Below are positions 1-8,241 of a stretch of DNA of 8,241 nt, one piece after another (the stretch's first letter is position 1; the number at the start of each line of letters is the position of its first letter). The notes below the pieces were generated by a model. That model searched no databases. It was not told the origin of the DNA and saw nothing but the letters and a program-made list of their open reading frames with translations. The stretch lies in assembly GCA_016932895.1 (NCBI GenBank), contig JAFGCA010000101.1:1-8241 (forward strand), written 5' to 3'. Origin of the DNA: Sedimentisphaerales bacterium. GTDB lineage: Bacteria > Planctomycetota > Phycisphaerae > Sedimentisphaerales > SG8-4. The position numbers were made by a program, and so were the translations under genes.

Positions 1-1767
1 CACGCGACACGGCGTCATCAGGGTGAGGCTGATTTCCTGCGCGGATTTCGCGAGCGAATAGGCGTCCGTCACGGCAACGTCTCGCCCGCGATTGAAACGA
101 ATCGTTCGTTTCCATGACGCCAGATGCGCCTCCTTCGGATACGCACCGGCGATATCGAGCCGAAGCTGGGCATACCCATCGCCGGCCTCATACTCAACGT
201 CCCTGGCCGCGAATCGCCCGCCGGGCGCCTGCATCACGCCGTCAATCGTGGGCAGGCTGTGGTAGGCCGACTGCATCGTCCAGATCTCATAGCGCCGCGA
301 GCTGAACGTCTTGCGGCTGTAGGTCTCGACCCCGATGTCGATAATCACGGGGCAGCCGTCGTGATAGACGATGAAGTTGCCCACGTCGTTGTGATTGTGA
401 CTCTCGGCGTTGTGCCCGCCTTTGGCCGCGACGTACAGGCCGCGAGCGTCCCCATCACGGTCGCGGGCCGTCATCACCTGAATGCCGTCCAGCCACACGT
501 CGCGAACCAGAGGCGGTTCGGCCTTTCTGCCCATCAGGTTCGCAGCGCTGAAGACGGCCCGCAGGTACCGCCCCAGTGTGTACGCCCGCCTTCCGGCAAA
601 CGGCGTGTCACCCTCGTCCCCTTCGATGCCCTTGGCGAACAGGTATGTGCCAAAACTCGCCAGTGACTCATCCGCGATTCTCCTACCGTATTGATAGACC
701 AGCTCGGCCGGCGGGTGCGCCCGGGCCGAGGCGTCGGCGAAATTCACAAAGGAATCGCCCGCGATGTGGACGCGGTGGATATAGCGGCCGATCTCCCTGA
801 CGAGCGAGCGGTCGTAGACGTCGATGGCGCCGTTGCTGGCGCTGTAGAGCAGTTCCAGGCCGTCGAACAGCGCCCCGCCGGCGCGGCTCCAGTAGCCCGG
901 CCCCTCGTCGCAGCCGCCATCATCGTCGTAGGAATTCAGGAAGTTGTCCAGGCTGCGCGCGATCTTGGCAACGGACTGTACGCGTCGATCTTCGTCGGGC
1001 TCGATCAGCAGCGTGCAGGCCAGCCAGTTTGAGTTGCACCAGGGATTCCAATTGTTCACGCGGCGGTTGGGAAACCCCATCCAGCCGAAATTGTCGCGCT
1101 CGAAGCACGGGGTCAGGATGCGCCGGTCGATTTCGAGGGCCACGCGTTTGCGGATCAAAGGCGAGACGCGATCAAGCCGGTCACCGAGCAGGTAGCAGGT
1201 CCAGGCCAGGGACTCCCCCGTCTCAGCCACGAACAACGCCACGATGGGCTCGCTGACATCGGGCAGCCCCGAGCCGGCCTTCTGGGCGCCGACGTGGGCG
1301 GGCACGCCCCAGAACGACTCCTCGCAGATCGCCCAGATCCCGTTGGCGATGTCGTCGAGGAAACGACCCTTCCCTTCCACGCATTCGGCGATCACCAAAT
1401 GAGTCAGCGCCACCCGGCGGGCAAAATGCGGCGTCTGGTAGCGACTGCGATTGCCGTTGCGGGCAAACTCGAGAAAGAGCGTCGCCGGCAGGGCCGGCCA
1501 CTCGTAACCGAGGTATTCGGCGCCGTTGGCGATGAGGTCCTTCCGCACGGGTTCCGGCAGCGCCTCCCAGGCCGACCGATCCTCCCACGTCGGCCACGGA
1601 CGCCACTGCTCCCGCGGAACCAGCACCTTCGCAATCTCCTCCTGCGGGTATAACTCAGCCAGCTTGAAGCGGTCTTCCTGCCCGGCGGCCGCGCTGCAAA
1701 AGACGACTGCCGCAAAAAGCAGGCAGGCCACAAACGCACGCCTGCCTGATGGCCTGTCACAGCTCAT
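1..1767 (-). CDS. Heparinase II/III-family polysaccharide lyase, 3' end beyond window
   Basis: Secreted polysaccharide lyase that probably cleaves a uronic-acid-containing (possibly sulfated) glycan by beta-elimination. The 589 residues in the window have no stop and run off the left edge. Residues 1-30 form a Sec-type signal peptide (basic MSCDRPSGRR, hydrophobic AFVACLLFAAVVF, then small residues). Residues about 60-410 fit the alpha-helical toroid; NNWNPW (238-243) and DEGPGYW (287-293) are active-site-like motifs, with Tyr292 placed like the catalytic Tyr of heparinase II. Residues from about 425 form the heparinase II/III beta-domain, with SHNHNDVGNF (456-465), IIDIG (475-479) and AYHSLP (501-506). 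His459, Asp477 and His503 are candidate metal ligands by analogy with heparinase II. I found no clear counterpart of that enzyme's first catalytic His; Asn residues occupy the motif instead. It is the last visible gene of the operon. The start is uncertain: ATG 1767 suits the signal peptide but lacks a Shine-Dalgarno, whereas in-frame ATG 1983 has a perfect one. The substrate cannot be read from sequence. Confidence 0.88.
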   Translation of the reverse strand, partial: MSCDRPSGRRAFVACLLFAAVVFCSAAAGQEDRFKLAELYPQEEIAKVLVPREQWRPWPTWEDRSAWEALPEPVRKDLIANGAEYLGYEWPALPATLFLEFARNGNRSRYQTPHFARRVALTHLVIAECVEGKGRFLDDIANGIWAICEESFWGVPAHVGAQKAGSGLPDVSEPIVALFVAETGESLAWTCYLLGDRLDRVSPLIRKRVALEIDRRILTPCFERDNFGWMGFPNRRVNNWNPWCNSNWLACTLLIEPDEDRRVQSVAKIARSLDNFLNSYDDDGGCDEGPGYWSRAGGALFDGLELLYSASNGAIDVYDRSLVREIGRYIHRVHIAGDSFVNFADASARAHPPAELVYQYGRRIADESLASFGTYLFAKGIEGDEGDTPFAGRRAYTLGRYLRAVFSAANLMGRKAEPPLVRDVWLDGIQVMTARDRDGDARGLYVAAKGGHNAESHNHNDVGNFIVYHDGCPVIIDIGVETYSRKTFSSRRYEIWTMQSAYHSLPTIDGVMQAPGGRFAARDVEYEAGDGYAQLRLDIAGAYPKEAHLASWKRTIRFNRGRDVAVTDAYSLAKSAQEISLTLMTPCRV

Positions 1768-1786
1768 GGGACGAGCCGGACCGTGT

Positions 1787-1820
1787 GTGGCAGCGTCAAG
1801 GCGGCACGCCTTGGCGATGG
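1787..1820 (+). repeat. 34-bp palindromic element, copy 1
   Basis: The plus strand has GTGGCAGCGTCAAG, a 9-nt variable centre and CTTGGCGATGG. The centre forms a hairpin CAAGGCG-GCA-CGCCTTG (7-bp stem, 3-nt loop), extendable outward by a T·G wobble and two GC pairs. Copy 2 at 1868-1901 has identical flanks on the other strand. The two copies are separated by 47 nt and face each other. Confidence 0.85.
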
Positions 1821-1867
1821 GGGACCTGTCTGCTGCCTGTGGCGCCATACGAGCCCCAGGCGTTGAG

Positions 1868-1901
1868 CCATCGCCAAGTCTTTCGGACTTGACGCTGCCA
1901 C
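1868..1901 (-). repeat. 34-bp palindromic element, copy 2 (inverted)
   Basis: The minus strand has the same 14-nt left flank (GTGGCAGCGTCAAG) and 11-nt right flank (CTTGGCGATGG) as copy 1 but a different 9-nt centre. The stem becomes CAAGTC/GACTTG with a 5-nt loop. Both arms changed together compared with copy 1, so pairing is retained, which argues that the folded hairpin matters. Together the copies also make an inverted repeat across 1787-1901 that could form a long cruciform or RNA stem. Confidence 0.85.
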
Positions 1902-1947
1902 CCGTCGCCAAAAGAGAAACGCAGGCAACAACCATGCGCCCGCCTGG

Positions 1948-1970
1948 TAGAGTGGGGCTTGCCCCATCTA
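1948..1970. repeat. GGGGC palindrome next to the 34-bp elements
   Basis: TGGGGC, TT, GCCCCA forms a tight palindrome. Outer bases TAGA and TCTA extend it to about 10 paired bases with one bulged G at 1952. It lies 47 nt from copy 2 of the 34-bp element and is transcribed and read through in the lyase frame. There is no T-run after it on either strand, so it is not a convincing terminator. Confidence 0.6.
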
Positions 1971-1991
1971 TCCCTCTATCCATCTGCAAAA

Positions 1992-1997
1992 CCTCCT
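1992..1997 (-). promoter_or_regulatory. Strong Shine-Dalgarno AGGAGG ahead of ATG 1983
   Basis: The minus strand reads AGGAGG, then 8 nt (TTTTGCAG), then ATG at 1983. This is the best ribosome-binding site in the window, and it lies 57 nt after the sulfatase A stop, where an operon-internal site would be expected. It is in frame with the lyase but 224 nt away from the signal-peptide ATG at 1767. Confidence 0.75.
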
Positions 1998-2053: not shown

Positions 2054-3499
2054 TTACCATCGATAGCCGGCGCGAAACTTGTGGAGCTCCGCCGACAAGC
2101 GTTTGACAAGCTCGGCGTTCTCCGGGCGCTCCGAGATATTGGTGTTCTCGTCGGGGTCGACCTTCTGGTCGTAGAGCATGCGGGCGTACATCTTGCCATT
2201 CTTTCCGGCCCACTCGGTATAGCAGTAGCGGTCGGTACGCACGGAGTCGCCGCTGTGGAAGCGGCTGTAGATTGCTTTCTTTCCGGGCCGTTTCGGATCT
2301 TTCAGCCGCGGCACGAAGCTGCGTCCCTCGATGTGCTCGGGCAAGGGCAGCCCCGCCAGCTCGCACAGGGACGGGTAGATGTCCACGAATTCCGTCAGGC
2401 CGTCGGTCCGGATACCGCCCTCGAGACCGGGGACCCGAACGATCAGCGGGGCCCGCAGCGACGTCTGAAAATGACAATGCTTGCACCAGAGTGTGTGCTC
2501 GCCCAGGTTCCAGCCATGATCGCCCCAGAGCACGACGATGGTGTCGTCACTCAATCCGAGGCGGTCCAGCTCGTCCAACACGCGTCCGATCTGGGCATCT
2601 GTGTAGCTCGTGCAGGCATAGTAACCGTGAATGAGCGTGCGGGCCATTTCCTCCGACAGCGGCCCCTTCTTCGGAATTCCGTGGTAGGCTCGCAGTTCGC
2701 CCCAGTTGTGGATGGCCGCGTCGGGGGCGTCCTTCGGGCGGAACGGGTTATCCGCCAGTTCGATCTCATCGGGGTCGTAGAGATCCCAGTACTTCTTCGG
2801 CGCGTTGAACGGCAGGTGCGGCTTGACGAACCCGACCGCCAGGAAGAACGGCTCGTCCATCCGTTTGAGCCGGCGCAGGTCCGAGATCGCTTTGTCCGCC
2901 GTCCTGCCGTCGGCATACTCGCTGTCGCCAACCTCGGCACATTCGTACGCCGGCCCCAGGCCCCCCTCGGTCTTTCGGGTGATCGCGATATTCTCCGGGC
3001 GGAGATACCCCCTGCCGCCCCATTCCCCGGTCGGCCGCCAGGCGTCCTCCGACCAGCTCCCGGCGCCGTCGTTGCGGTGGTGATAGACCTTGCCGTTCGA
3101 GATGGTGTAGTACCCGTTTTGGCGGAAGTGCCTCGGCAGGGACAGCGGGGCGCCCCAGTCTTTGTCAGCGTGATGGAGGTAGCCTTTGAAGGCGCGATCC
3201 CGCGTGGGGCGAATCCCGGAGAGCAGACTCGCCCGTGACGCGCCGCACACCGGAGATTGGCAATAGGACCGATTGAAGACGACCCCGCCGGCCGCCAGGC
3301 GGTCGATATGAGGCGAAATGATGTGCTTTTGCCCGAAGCAGCCCAACTCCGGCCGTAGATCATCGACGGCAATGAACAGCACATTGGGCTTCTTCGCCTT
3401 GCCCTGCCCGGCGAGCAGCGCGCCGGACAGGGACCATGCCATCGCCCCGGCACCCACGGTCCGTAGAAATCCACGTCGGCTCAGATTCGCAGTCTGCAT
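2054..3499 (-). CDS. Iduronate-2-sulfatase-like type I sulfatase (sulfatase A)
   Basis: Hydrolyses sulfate esters from a carbohydrate, probably outside the cytoplasm. From ATG 3499 (481 residues) it opens with a Tat signal, SRRGFL at 7-12 followed by a hydrophobic Ala/Gly/Leu stretch. The sulfatase domain starts at PNVLFIAVDDLRPELGCFG, the typical opening of iduronate-2-sulfatases. Asp46/Asp47 are metal ligands and Cys85 in CGASR (85-89) is the formylglycine precursor. Lys138 (GKVYHH), His228 (KPH), Asp327/His328 (GDHGWNLGEH) and Lys340 complete the expected site. The length is normal for bacterial members. GGAGG at 3511-3515 is 11 nt from this ATG; TTG 3505, 5 nt from it, would add two residues. 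It follows sulfatase B by 41 nt and precedes the lyase, consistent with one uronan- or glycosaminoglycan-directed operon. Membership in the sulfatase family is certain. The iduronate-2-sulfate substrate is inferred from family resemblance only. Confidence 0.93.
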   Translation of the reverse strand: MQTANLSRRGFLRTVGAGAMAWSLSGALLAGQGKAKKPNVLFIAVDDLRPELGCFGQKHIISPHIDRLAAGGVVFNRSYCQSPVCGASRASLLSGIRPTRDRAFKGYLHHADKDWGAPLSLPRHFRQNGYYTISNGKVYHHRNDGAGSWSEDAWRPTGEWGGRGYLRPENIAITRKTEGGLGPAYECAEVGDSEYADGRTADKAISDLRRLKRMDEPFFLAVGFVKPHLPFNAPKKYWDLYDPDEIELADNPFRPKDAPDAAIHNWGELRAYHGIPKKGPLSEEMARTLIHGYYACTSYTDAQIGRVLDELDRLGLSDDTIVVLWGDHGWNLGEHTLWCKHCHFQTSLRAPLIVRVPGLEGGIRTDGLTEFVDIYPSLCELAGLPLPEHIEGRSFVPRLKDPKRPGKKAIYSRFHSGDSVRTDRYCYTEWAGKNGKMYARMLYDQKVDPDENTNISERPENAELVKRLSAELHKFRAGYRW

Positions 3500-3510
3500 A
3501 TCCAATCATA

Positions 3511-6402: not shown

Positions 6403-6489
6403 ACACAACCAGGGCGGAGCGACTACGGGCTTTCATCGTTCAGCGTCAGTTGAATCGGAGCGATCTTTCGGGACAAAAAAATGAGATTC

Positions 6490-6519
6490 TTGGCCTTTTT
6501 GACTTCGTCTGTATATAAT
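6490..6519 (+). promoter_or_regulatory. Probable sigma-70 promoter of the GLUG-repeat gene
   Basis: A perfect TATAAT (6514-6519) sits in a conspicuous AT-rich patch of an otherwise GC-rich window. With an 18-nt spacer, TTGGCC (6490-6495) is a 4-of-6 -35 box. TTGACT (6499-6504) is a better -35 hexamer but only 9 nt from the -10, too close to act with it. Transcription would start near 6526, giving a leader of about 40 nt to ATG 6565. Confidence 0.5.
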
Positions 6520-6564
6520 ATGGGTGAGATATTTTCATGTGGACTTTTTGGAAAGGCGAAGAAA

Positions 6565-8241
6565 ATGACTAGGAAAAGCGGACACACGTTGATGGTGGGA
6601 CTTCTTCTTGTTTGGCGAATGTGGGCGGGAAGCAGTTCGGTGATAGCGGGGCCTTTTGCGGGAGGGACCGGCCAGGTTGATGATCCCTACCAGATCGCCA
6701 CCGCCGAGCAACTGATCTCTATCAAGAGCGACCCCAATCTCCTGGACAAGCACTTCATCCTGACGGCGGACATTGATTTGAGCCCGGAGCTGCCGGAGGG
6801 AAGGGTCTTCGACGAGGCATTGATTGGCCACACCGAGGAGTATGCTTTCAGGGGACACTTTGACGGTGACGGGCACGTCATACGGAACATGACCATCCAG
6901 GCTCCGGAAGTAAGATCCGTGGGCTTGTTTGGGTGGATTGACAGTGCAACGATAGTGAGTATTGGAGTGGAGGATTGTCGTGTCCAGGCCAAGTCAGCTG
7001 TCGGCGGACTCGTCGGGCGAAGCGATGGCTGCACGATTACGTCGAGCTATGCCAAGGGGTCCGTCTCGGGCGAATCGCATGTCGGCGGACTCATAGGCAG
7101 AAGCTCCAACGATGTAGTGAGTTCATGTTATGCACTGGGTTCCGTCATGGGAGGAAACCGTGTTGGCGGGCTTCAAGGAGATAACTACTGGGGCACGGTT
7201 ATTACCAGCTACGCCCGTTGTAGCGTAACAGGAGACGACTATTTTGTCGGAGGGCTGATCGGCGGTGGCTACGAGCATACCGCATATCTGAGTACCTGGG
7301 ACGTCGACGTCAGCGGCTTGAGCACAAGCTTTGGCGGCGAGGGAAAATCTTCGCAAGACATGATGTCGGCGGCCACCTATCGTGGCTGGGGAGAAGGTGC
7401 CCAATGGACACTGAACGAGGGCGTGGATACACCACGCCTGGTCTGGGAGAATCAGCCCGGTCAGCTCCTTGTCGAGCCGGCAAACTTCTATGGAGGCGGT
7501 ACGGGGCAACCGGAGGATCCCTATCAGATCTGGACGGCCCAACAGATGCTGAGCATCGGCTATTGCCCTGCGGATTTCCACAAGTCTTTTGCGCTGATGG
7601 CCGACATCGATTTTGGGGAAATAGACCCCAATGCGGTCGTTCCCATCGGGACACTGGGGCTGCCTTTCACCGGCGCCTTCGATGGCCGAGGACATACCAT
7701 CCGGAACATGCATCTTCCCCTGGCGGGATCGAATTATGCAGGCCTGTTTGGCTATATCGGCTCGGCAGAGGAGGACCCCAATAGCCCTGTTGGAGAGGTA
7801 AGGGATCTGCATCTGGAGGCGGTTACCGTTTGGGGAGACCGCAATGTCGGCGGATTGGTCGGATTGAACCAGGGACGCATCGTATCCTGTTCCGTATCCG
7901 GCAACGTTTCGGGCGATGATTATGTTGGCGGTCTTGCGGGACTCAACGATCGCGGAGCTATCACATCGAGCTATGCCGATTGCCACGTGGATGGGACGGC
8001 CCAGATCGGTGGCTTGGTGGGGGGCAACGGTGTCGGCAACATCGTCTCAAGTTATGCCGCTGGCAGCGTGAACGGGGAACTACAAGTCGGAGGCTTCGTG
8101 GGGCGTAACCTCGAAGGAGCGATCGTCACCTGCTACGCAACGGCGCACGTCATCGCAGAGTCCTACGCCGGGGGTCTGGTCGCCGACAATGAAAAGGGCG
8201 CAGTTTACCTGAGTTACTGGGATATCGACACGAGCGGTACG
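6565..8241 (+). CDS. Secreted GLUG-repeat surface protein with two tandem modules, 3' end beyond window
   Basis: A large exported protein of unknown function; 559 residues are visible with no stop. Residues 1-29 are a Sec signal peptide (MTRKSGHTLMVGLLLVW to VIAG). Module 1 opens with FAGGTGQVDDPYQIATAEQL (31-50), then LTADIDL (66-72) and HFDGDGHVIRNMTI (98-111). Four GLUG motifs follow at about 146, 173, 200 and 228, then a closing STWDVDVSGLST (243-254) and WTLNEGVDTPRLVWE (281-295). Module 2 repeats the order: YGGGTGQPEDPYQIWTAQQM (309-328), ADIDF (346-350), FDGRGHTIRNM (372-382), GLUG motifs at about 428, 454, 481, 508 and a degenerate one at 535, and SYWDIDTSGT at the edge. The repeat period is about 27 residues, probably forming a beta-helix or solenoid. 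GLUG repeats are known from bacterial surface and adhesin-like proteins. A carbohydrate-binding, adhesive or protease-related role is possible but not shown. GAAAGG at 6551-6556 is a weak ribosome-binding site 8 nt before the ATG. It is divergent from the operon, and its C-terminal anchor is out of view. Confidence 0.85.
   Translation, partial: MTRKSGHTLMVGLLLVWRMWAGSSSVIAGPFAGGTGQVDDPYQIATAEQLISIKSDPNLLDKHFILTADIDLSPELPEGRVFDEALIGHTEEYAFRGHFDGDGHVIRNMTIQAPEVRSVGLFGWIDSATIVSIGVEDCRVQAKSAVGGLVGRSDGCTITSSYAKGSVSGESHVGGLIGRSSNDVVSSCYALGSVMGGNRVGGLQGDNYWGTVITSYARCSVTGDDYFVGGLIGGGYEHTAYLSTWDVDVSGLSTSFGGEGKSSQDMMSAATYRGWGEGAQWTLNEGVDTPRLVWENQPGQLLVEPANFYGGGTGQPEDPYQIWTAQQMLSIGYCPADFHKSFALMADIDFGEIDPNAVVPIGTLGLPFTGAFDGRGHTIRNMHLPLAGSNYAGLFGYIGSAEEDPNSPVGEVRDLHLEAVTVWGDRNVGGLVGLNQGRIVSCSVSGNVSGDDYVGGLAGLNDRGAITSSYADCHVDGTAQIGGLVGGNGVGNIVSSYAAGSVNGELQVGGFVGRNLEGAIVTCYATAHVIAESYAGGLVADNEKGAVYLSYWDIDTSGT

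Follow-up and report, generated by a model that had tools for sequence, protein, structure and literature searches.

The lyase locus and its two candidate starts

The window, by which we mean the whole stretch of 8,241 nt that was analysed, carries on its minus strand what by its appearance is a polysaccharide-degradation operon, made up of a gene with a weak GH5 match, two sulfatases and a heparinase II/III-like lyase that continues past the window end (Table 1). A divergent frame with GLUG motifs (PF07581), at 6481-8241 on the plus strand, also runs off the window. As given in the original prediction, the lyase ATG at 1983 is preceded by a perfect Shine-Dalgarno sequence. A second ATG of the same frame lies at 1767, 216 nt or 72 codons further on, with zero stops in between, and no Shine-Dalgarno sequence was found ahead of it.

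The stop-free 72 codons had been taken as a sign of an insert kept in frame. The observation itself is correct, but it is weak evidence: of 5000 sequences drawn from a first-order Markov model of this stretch, 26% were likewise open (P = 0.26), and the lyase frame is also open upstream as far as 2301, across the Shine-Dalgarno sequence. The missing stops were therefore rejected as evidence of translation. From 1767 to the window end, the lyase body has 589 codons without a stop and good codon usage (codon score 0.26). Compared with the body, no coding signature was found in the leader by codon scores (-0.19 for the copy 1 region, -0.14 for the REP-a region and -0.04 for copy 2).

Table 1. Positions of genes, repeats and signal-peptide copies in the window.
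Feature	Position	Strand	Basis or remark
Gene with weak GH5 match	6345-4981	-	Domain search
Sulfatase 1	4953-3541	-	Domain search
Sulfatase 2, upstream of the lyase in the same operon	2054..3505	-	Reading frame and domain search
Shine-Dalgarno AGGAGG, 8 nt before ATG 1983	1992..1997	-	Sequence
Lyase frame from ATG 1983, Hepar_II_III_C domain	1..1983	-	661 codons within the window, runs off its end
Signal-peptide copy 1, codons 1-27, MDRGIDGASPTLPGGRMVVACVSLLAT	1903..1983	-	Orthologous to P0002 and P0003 starts
REP-b, single GTAG-tagged palindrome	1947..1968		2 differences from relatives' consensus
REP-a inverted dimer (arms 1868-1901 and 1787-1820, spacer 1821-1867)	1785..1903		Inverted-repeat search, relatives
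Filler between dimer and copy 2, contains in-frame ATG 1767	1750..1784	-	Sequence
Signal-peptide copy 2, codons 79-103, SGRRAFVACLLFAAVVFCSAAAGQE	1675..1749	-	More hydrophobic than copy 1

Palindromes between the two starts

Two kinds of palindromic repeat, REP-a and REP-b, occupy about 141 of the 216 nt (22 nt for REP-b and 119 nt for the REP-a dimer including its spacer), in agreement with the earlier description of this stretch as mostly palindromic repeat. The REP-a arms are 34 nt long, 85% complementary and 47 nt apart. Folding of the dimer gave -64 kcal/mol (z -5.2, 0/200 shuffles as good); for the whole 230 nt, z was -1.4 and 16/200 shuffles were as good, which is not clearly better than shuffles. 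No match in the window reached the Rfam gathering score, and a known RNA family was rejected on this ground. The outer ends of REP-a are GTGG rather than GTAG or CGTC, and GTGG ends are known for one GTAG family (PMC3733652).

REP-b is a short palindromic stem with a GTAG tag at one end; its sequence is GTAGAGTGGGGCTTGCCCCATC in the window, and the consensus in relatives is GTAGGGTGGGGCTTGCCCCACC. It reads as the peptide GASPTL, which is common to P0002 and P0003, the closest lyase orthologues among the matches listed (92% and 87% identity, respectively), and was seen in those two as peptide only. By peptide signature, REP-b is N-terminal in 6/120 listed lyase homologues; at the peptide level only, P0002 and P0003 have a half element and P0033, P0038, P0046 and P0099 have a dimer.

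A duplicated signal-peptide core

The order in the window lyase is MDRGIDGASPTLPGGRMVVACVSLLAT, 51 other codons, and SGRRAFVACLLFAAVVFCSAAAGQE directly followed by DRFKL. The N-termini of P0002 and P0003 read MDRDIGGASPTLRGGRIFVACVFISLASVVTAAGRE and MYRRIGGASPTLPSRRMFVACIFLLAAVSVVTAAAQE, each followed by GRFKL; their starts, MDRDIGGASPTL and MYRRIGGASPTL, respectively, correspond to ATG 1983, and each protein has a single core. Counted from residue 1, the alignment with P0002 takes in window codons 1-22 and that with P0003 codons 1-26, and when each window copy was compared with each orthologue signal peptide, 0/1000 shuffles were as good. The two copies share 25/36 nt in their best ungapped 36-mer, which was reached by 0/300 shuffles. 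Their cores are spaced 198 nt or 66 codons apart, one on either side of the REP-a dimer. The hydrophobic 11-mer maximum is 2.43 for copy 1 and 3.06 for copy 2, and the latter retains an AAA-type end beside the mature protein.

Because P0002 and P0003 start at the counterpart of ATG 1983, codons 1-27 are the inherited start of the signal peptide and not insert. The original prediction, in which the signal peptide starts only at 1767, was right about the in-frame ATG and its missing Shine-Dalgarno sequence and wrong about the first 27 of the codons before it. Its insertion at the start codon does not hold either: judged from these alignments, the added stretch begins after codon 27, inside a pre-existing signal peptide. 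The 66 extra codons are absent from P0002 and P0003, and orthologues without the region rule out a protein sequence conserved over the 72 codons, as the prediction required. It had also anticipated relatives with a Shine-Dalgarno sequence directly before the signal peptide. A search for homologous loci, of which the best 80 of 587 were taken, gave L001-L009; among these and the loci of further genomes (L091-L104), several more distant orthologues show GGAG or GGAGG with a start codon a short way before an ordinary signal peptide. L001-L009 come from planctomycete MAGs (of Phycisphaerae, of Sedimentisphaerales or of Planctomycetota without closer placement) and have 70-73% identity to the window lyase.

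Dispersal of the repeats and their transposases

Both repeats are multicopy in related Sedimentisphaerales and Phycisphaerae genomes. The REP-a core (up to 3 mismatches) is present in 8/9 orthologue genomes (0 for the reversed control), with 34, 21, 8, 1, 5, 103, 2 and 8 copies in G001 and G003-G009 and 0 in G002, and the inverted dimer recurs in L089, L124, L126 (identical to L160), L128 and L129. The window variant of REP-b (up to 3 mismatches) was found in 9/13 genomes (control 0). Its consensus has 354 copies in G079 and 79 in G001, many of which form inverted pairs with about 45 nt between the members. That the palindromes are dispersed and the frame is open bears out the earlier idea of a repeat cluster kept in frame at the start of the gene. 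Many of the REP-b copies in G079 (e.g. C18:21711-21763, C26:19985-20037) have a common longer 5' flank, GGAGTTCCGCCTTATGAGTTTTGACGAGCAAGTTCGGTAATGT, and part of the family therefore appears to move or be copied as a longer unit.

Y1_Tnp proteins were matched in 15/15 genomes, in 14 of them above the cut-off, and 50 transposase loci (L284-L333) were scanned for the repeats. Two cognate pairs of repeat and REP-associated tyrosine transposase (RAYT) are present in relatives: REP-b lies on both sides of the RAYT in L314, and in L310 REP-a cores at 1342-1370 and 1949 stand on both sides of a RAYT frame at 1372-1938. A REP-a-type dimer was seen in L328, one REP-a half each in L318 and L322, and a REP-b copy at some distance in L323; neither repeat was found in 44 of the 50 loci scanned. 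The proteins of L314, L310, L298 and L280 match NF047646 (REP_Tyr_transpos).

REPs between start codon and hydrophobic core in other genes

Among 200 distinct REP-b copies (L164-L283; G001 and part of G079), 48 fall within predicted genes and 152 outside, as called by a rough, home-made gene finder some of whose genes look spurious (e.g. L237, L250, L265). L253 and L194 have an ATG with a Shine-Dalgarno sequence, then a REP dimer, then a hydrophobic core (MNRHVGWGLPHRDSRHPKNRWGKPHPTVIVMLSGLMAMPLWA and MKYAARVPHVGWGLPHRNLFGGASPTLLLLSLLIAGAASA, respectively). A pattern search in 161 genomes for Shine-Dalgarno, start codon and REP-b core gave 24 matches in 11 genomes (control 0), and all 24 loci were scanned for ORFs of at least 60 codons. 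A second pattern, Shine-Dalgarno-ATG-GTAGGGTGGG, gave 63 matches in 23 genomes (control 18). Thirty-six of these were read (L420-L455); of the other 27, 26 are in G079, most with one common long flank.

Beside the lyase, 10 families in 11 related genomes have a GTAG-tagged REP in frame between start and hydrophobic segment, some of them as GTAG-tagged variants and not REP-b itself. They are GH172/DUF2961 (G001, G004, G079), BNR (G079), FlgH (G076), an HZS-alpha/PD40 protein (G084, G085), a 3-keto-disaccharide hydrolase (G038), a SASA esterase (G046), GH116 (G005, G081), a PF00144 protein (G004), GH16 (G004) and a protein of no assigned family with a single REP (G052). Family names come from domain search, with the members in G085, G081, G001 and G079 placed by sequence likeness, and the label "secreted" from hydropathy and reading. 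L224, L356, L453, L444 and L425 are uncertain cases, and the genes in L229/L350, L434 and L274 have a REP near the start and no hydrophobic N-terminus.

For two of the families, relatives without the repeat were found. GH172 in G007 reads MKNAARVP-IHVVCALIVCC with no REP at the site, and the same site is filled in G001 (VGWGLPHRNLFGGASPTL), G004 (VGWAVPTIHHPNISKGYWWAQPTL) and G079 (TGWDVPTISHPHSSGRNRWARPALP). Depending on lineage the filling is VGWGLPH..GGASPTL, VGWAVPT..WWAQPTL or TGWDVPT..WARPALP. P0122 (93% to the G004 protein) has kept the REP with substitutions, P0123 and P0125 are of GWGLPH types, and P0124 (86%) has a half element only. The REP signature was seen in 5/120 listed GH172 homologues, P0124 being outside those five. 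BNR in G080, MRRHVGFAVLFAVIVSSPLTAQ, has no REP.

The lyase of G079 reads GGAGGTTCTT-GTG-AAGCACAGACAACAT, followed by a REP-b unit. After some 400 nt of other sequence come a REP-a dimer and then the core CSILLIVMVLSSLAVG, and the whole lies in a single open frame about 181 codons long. It would be a second lyase with REPs between a putative start and the core. REP-a directly after Shine-Dalgarno and start codon gave 22 matches in 9/161 genomes (control 1), with a signal-peptide leader in none; on the G079 lyase contig, the strand matched is not that of the lyase. As read from sequence, then, REPs lie in frame in the window and in relatives, with orthologues that have no REP, and their translation is putative.

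REP-b also occurs deeper inside frames. In L253 (1676-4459, G079:C51) and L241 (G001:C279), a REP-b dimer stands at a similar place between HemC-like and CobA/HemD-like parts (named by eye) of one long frame; this dimer may be located in a gene fusion or may have made it. In the orthologous frames of about 825 codons in L239 and L247 (G001, G079), REP-b pairs stand at almost identical positions (about codons 290-308), out of element frame 0. In the secreted protein of L219 (G001:C147), a REP-b dimer lies in frame between two dockerin-like calcium-binding repeats (by eye).

Association with secreted proteins

Genes with a REP near the start were compared with others by the presence of a hydrophobic 11-mer of at least 2.0 (or 2.2) within the first 60 residues. 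With 2.0 as the cut-off, 15/18 such genes qualified, against 69/163 in the baseline (P = 0.0009) and 10/28 neighbours (P = 0.0017), where the 18 include orthologues and are not independent. With 2.2, the counts were 12/18 against 60/163 (P = 0.015) and 9/28 (P = 0.023). Another baseline, loaded with secreted families and replaced by this one, gave P = 0.054 and 0.21. Three of the 18 (L229, L434, L274) lack a hydrophobic N-terminus. The link between REPs near starts and secreted proteins is suggestive and not proof.

Proposed remodelling of the signal peptide

We propose that the lyase signal peptide has probably been remodelled in frame by REP-type mobile palindromes. REP-b, read as GASPTL, already stood between start and hydrophobic core in the common ancestor of the window lyase, P0002 and P0003, as shown at the peptide level in the orthologues and at the DNA level in the window. 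In the window lineage, the REP-a inverted dimer would then have arrived just behind the hydrophobic core, which now lies on both sides of it, 66 codons apart; the arrangement is directly visible, and its order and mechanism are inferred. Insertion was presumably carried out by RAYTs, which flank both repeat families in relatives. We considered that the core duplication might be a long target-site duplication from the REP-a insertion. Dimer and copy 2 are separated by about 36 nt for which no match was seen, and inspection of the G079 lyase by eye showed no second core. Translation would begin at ATG 1983 behind AGGAGG and yield a leader some 100 residues long, its middle part encoded by REPs, while copy 2, which lies downstream and is more hydrophobic, would maintain export. 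Such an insertion may have been tolerated because signal-peptide length is flexible.

The dimer could instead be untranslated, with initiation at or near ATG 1767, 1983-1768 as a 5' leader and copy 2 as a normal short signal peptide. From ATG 1767, copy 2 is indeed a complete signal peptide, the leader is without coding signature, some of the genes with a REP near the start have a plausible later start (L356, L453), and many NH2-terminal REPs have been explained in this way (PMC3733652). We nevertheless consider it unlikely, as ATG 1767 has no Shine-Dalgarno sequence and ATG 1983 a perfect one, the closest orthologues are called from the counterpart of 1983, and the frame is open throughout. 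Copy 1, with its native start and hydrophobic 11-mer of 2.43, might itself be the working signal peptide, cleaved near LLATG, with copy 2 as an internal hydrophobic segment anchoring the enzyme; the higher hydrophobicity of copy 2 and its AAA-type end beside the mature protein make this quite improbable. That the lyase gene is decaying and the insertion a harmful recent event is very improbable: 66 extra codons in a signal peptide would be expected to hurt, but the open, well-used 589-codon body, the 92% identity to P0002 and the well-formed copy 2 argue otherwise. The original suggestion of an insert that shuts off secretion or serves as a translational switch found nothing in its favour beyond the strong RNA hairpin that the dimer would give and is scarcely credible. 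Neither an alternative structure nor a conserved leader nor a regulated start was found, Rfam gave no match in the window at gathering score, and the occurrence of other REP variants in other genes of relatives fits tolerance better than regulation. The insertion would thus not be a regulator.

Beyond this locus, remodelling by REPs may tentatively be extended to a wider pattern, for which the odds are somewhat short of even. In Sedimentisphaerales and their kin, RAYT-driven REPs would be a recurrent source of signal-peptide variation. They would enter between start and core, where their peptide would form the n-region and some of the n/h junction. Over long periods they would then be retained, exchanged or trimmed without loss of the frame. 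The window would represent an extreme stage, with a second REP family and a duplicated export core.

Comparison with known elements

The kind of element is already known. GTAG-tagged REPs, REP dimers, RAYTs and intragenic copies have been described, with Planctomycetes and Verrucomicrobia among the hosts (PMC3733652), and the repeats of the window and its relatives share with them the GTAG tag, the short stem, inverted dimers, flanking of RAYTs and copies in genes. That study warned that many NH2-terminal REPs may be extragenic and doubted their translation. The term "signal peptide" does not occur in its main text. Here the order Shine-Dalgarno, start, REP and hydrophobic segment recurs, with orthologues that have no REP at the same site. 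In enterobacteria, one exported protein has RU-2, a 168-bp RU element, inside its predicted signal peptide (PMC2759123); whereas that is one locus, here short REPs occur in at least 11 protein families including the lyase. The palindromic elements of Rickettsia, to which the original prediction likened the insert, are likewise mobile palindromic repeats found in frame in many unrelated genes; they belong to other hosts, and the text available of their description ties them to no signal peptide (PMC10969869). The comparison is apt for the mode of working.

The window REPs are not known to share sequence with those of Rickettsia. REPINs consist of two inverted REPs as one mobile unit and are known mostly from extragenic positions. 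The REP-a dimer is built in this way, with two inverted copies of one palindrome at a short distance, repeated elsewhere as a unit. Among the papers listed in our literature searches, we found no account of REPs in planctomycete signal peptides or of recurrent in-frame REPs in Sec n-regions, and the latter appear to be what is added here.

REPs are regarded as extragenic elements, and copies at N-termini have been explained by misplaced start calls. Genes with the order start, REP and hydrophobic segment, together with their REP-less orthologues, make REP translation testable at one defined place, the Sec signal peptide, for which export and cleavage are easy to assay. If the proposal is true, gene callers and signal-peptide predictors should expect GWGLPH, RVGLAPP or GASPTL N-termini, and mobile palindromes would be one route to export-signal diversity in these planctomycetes.
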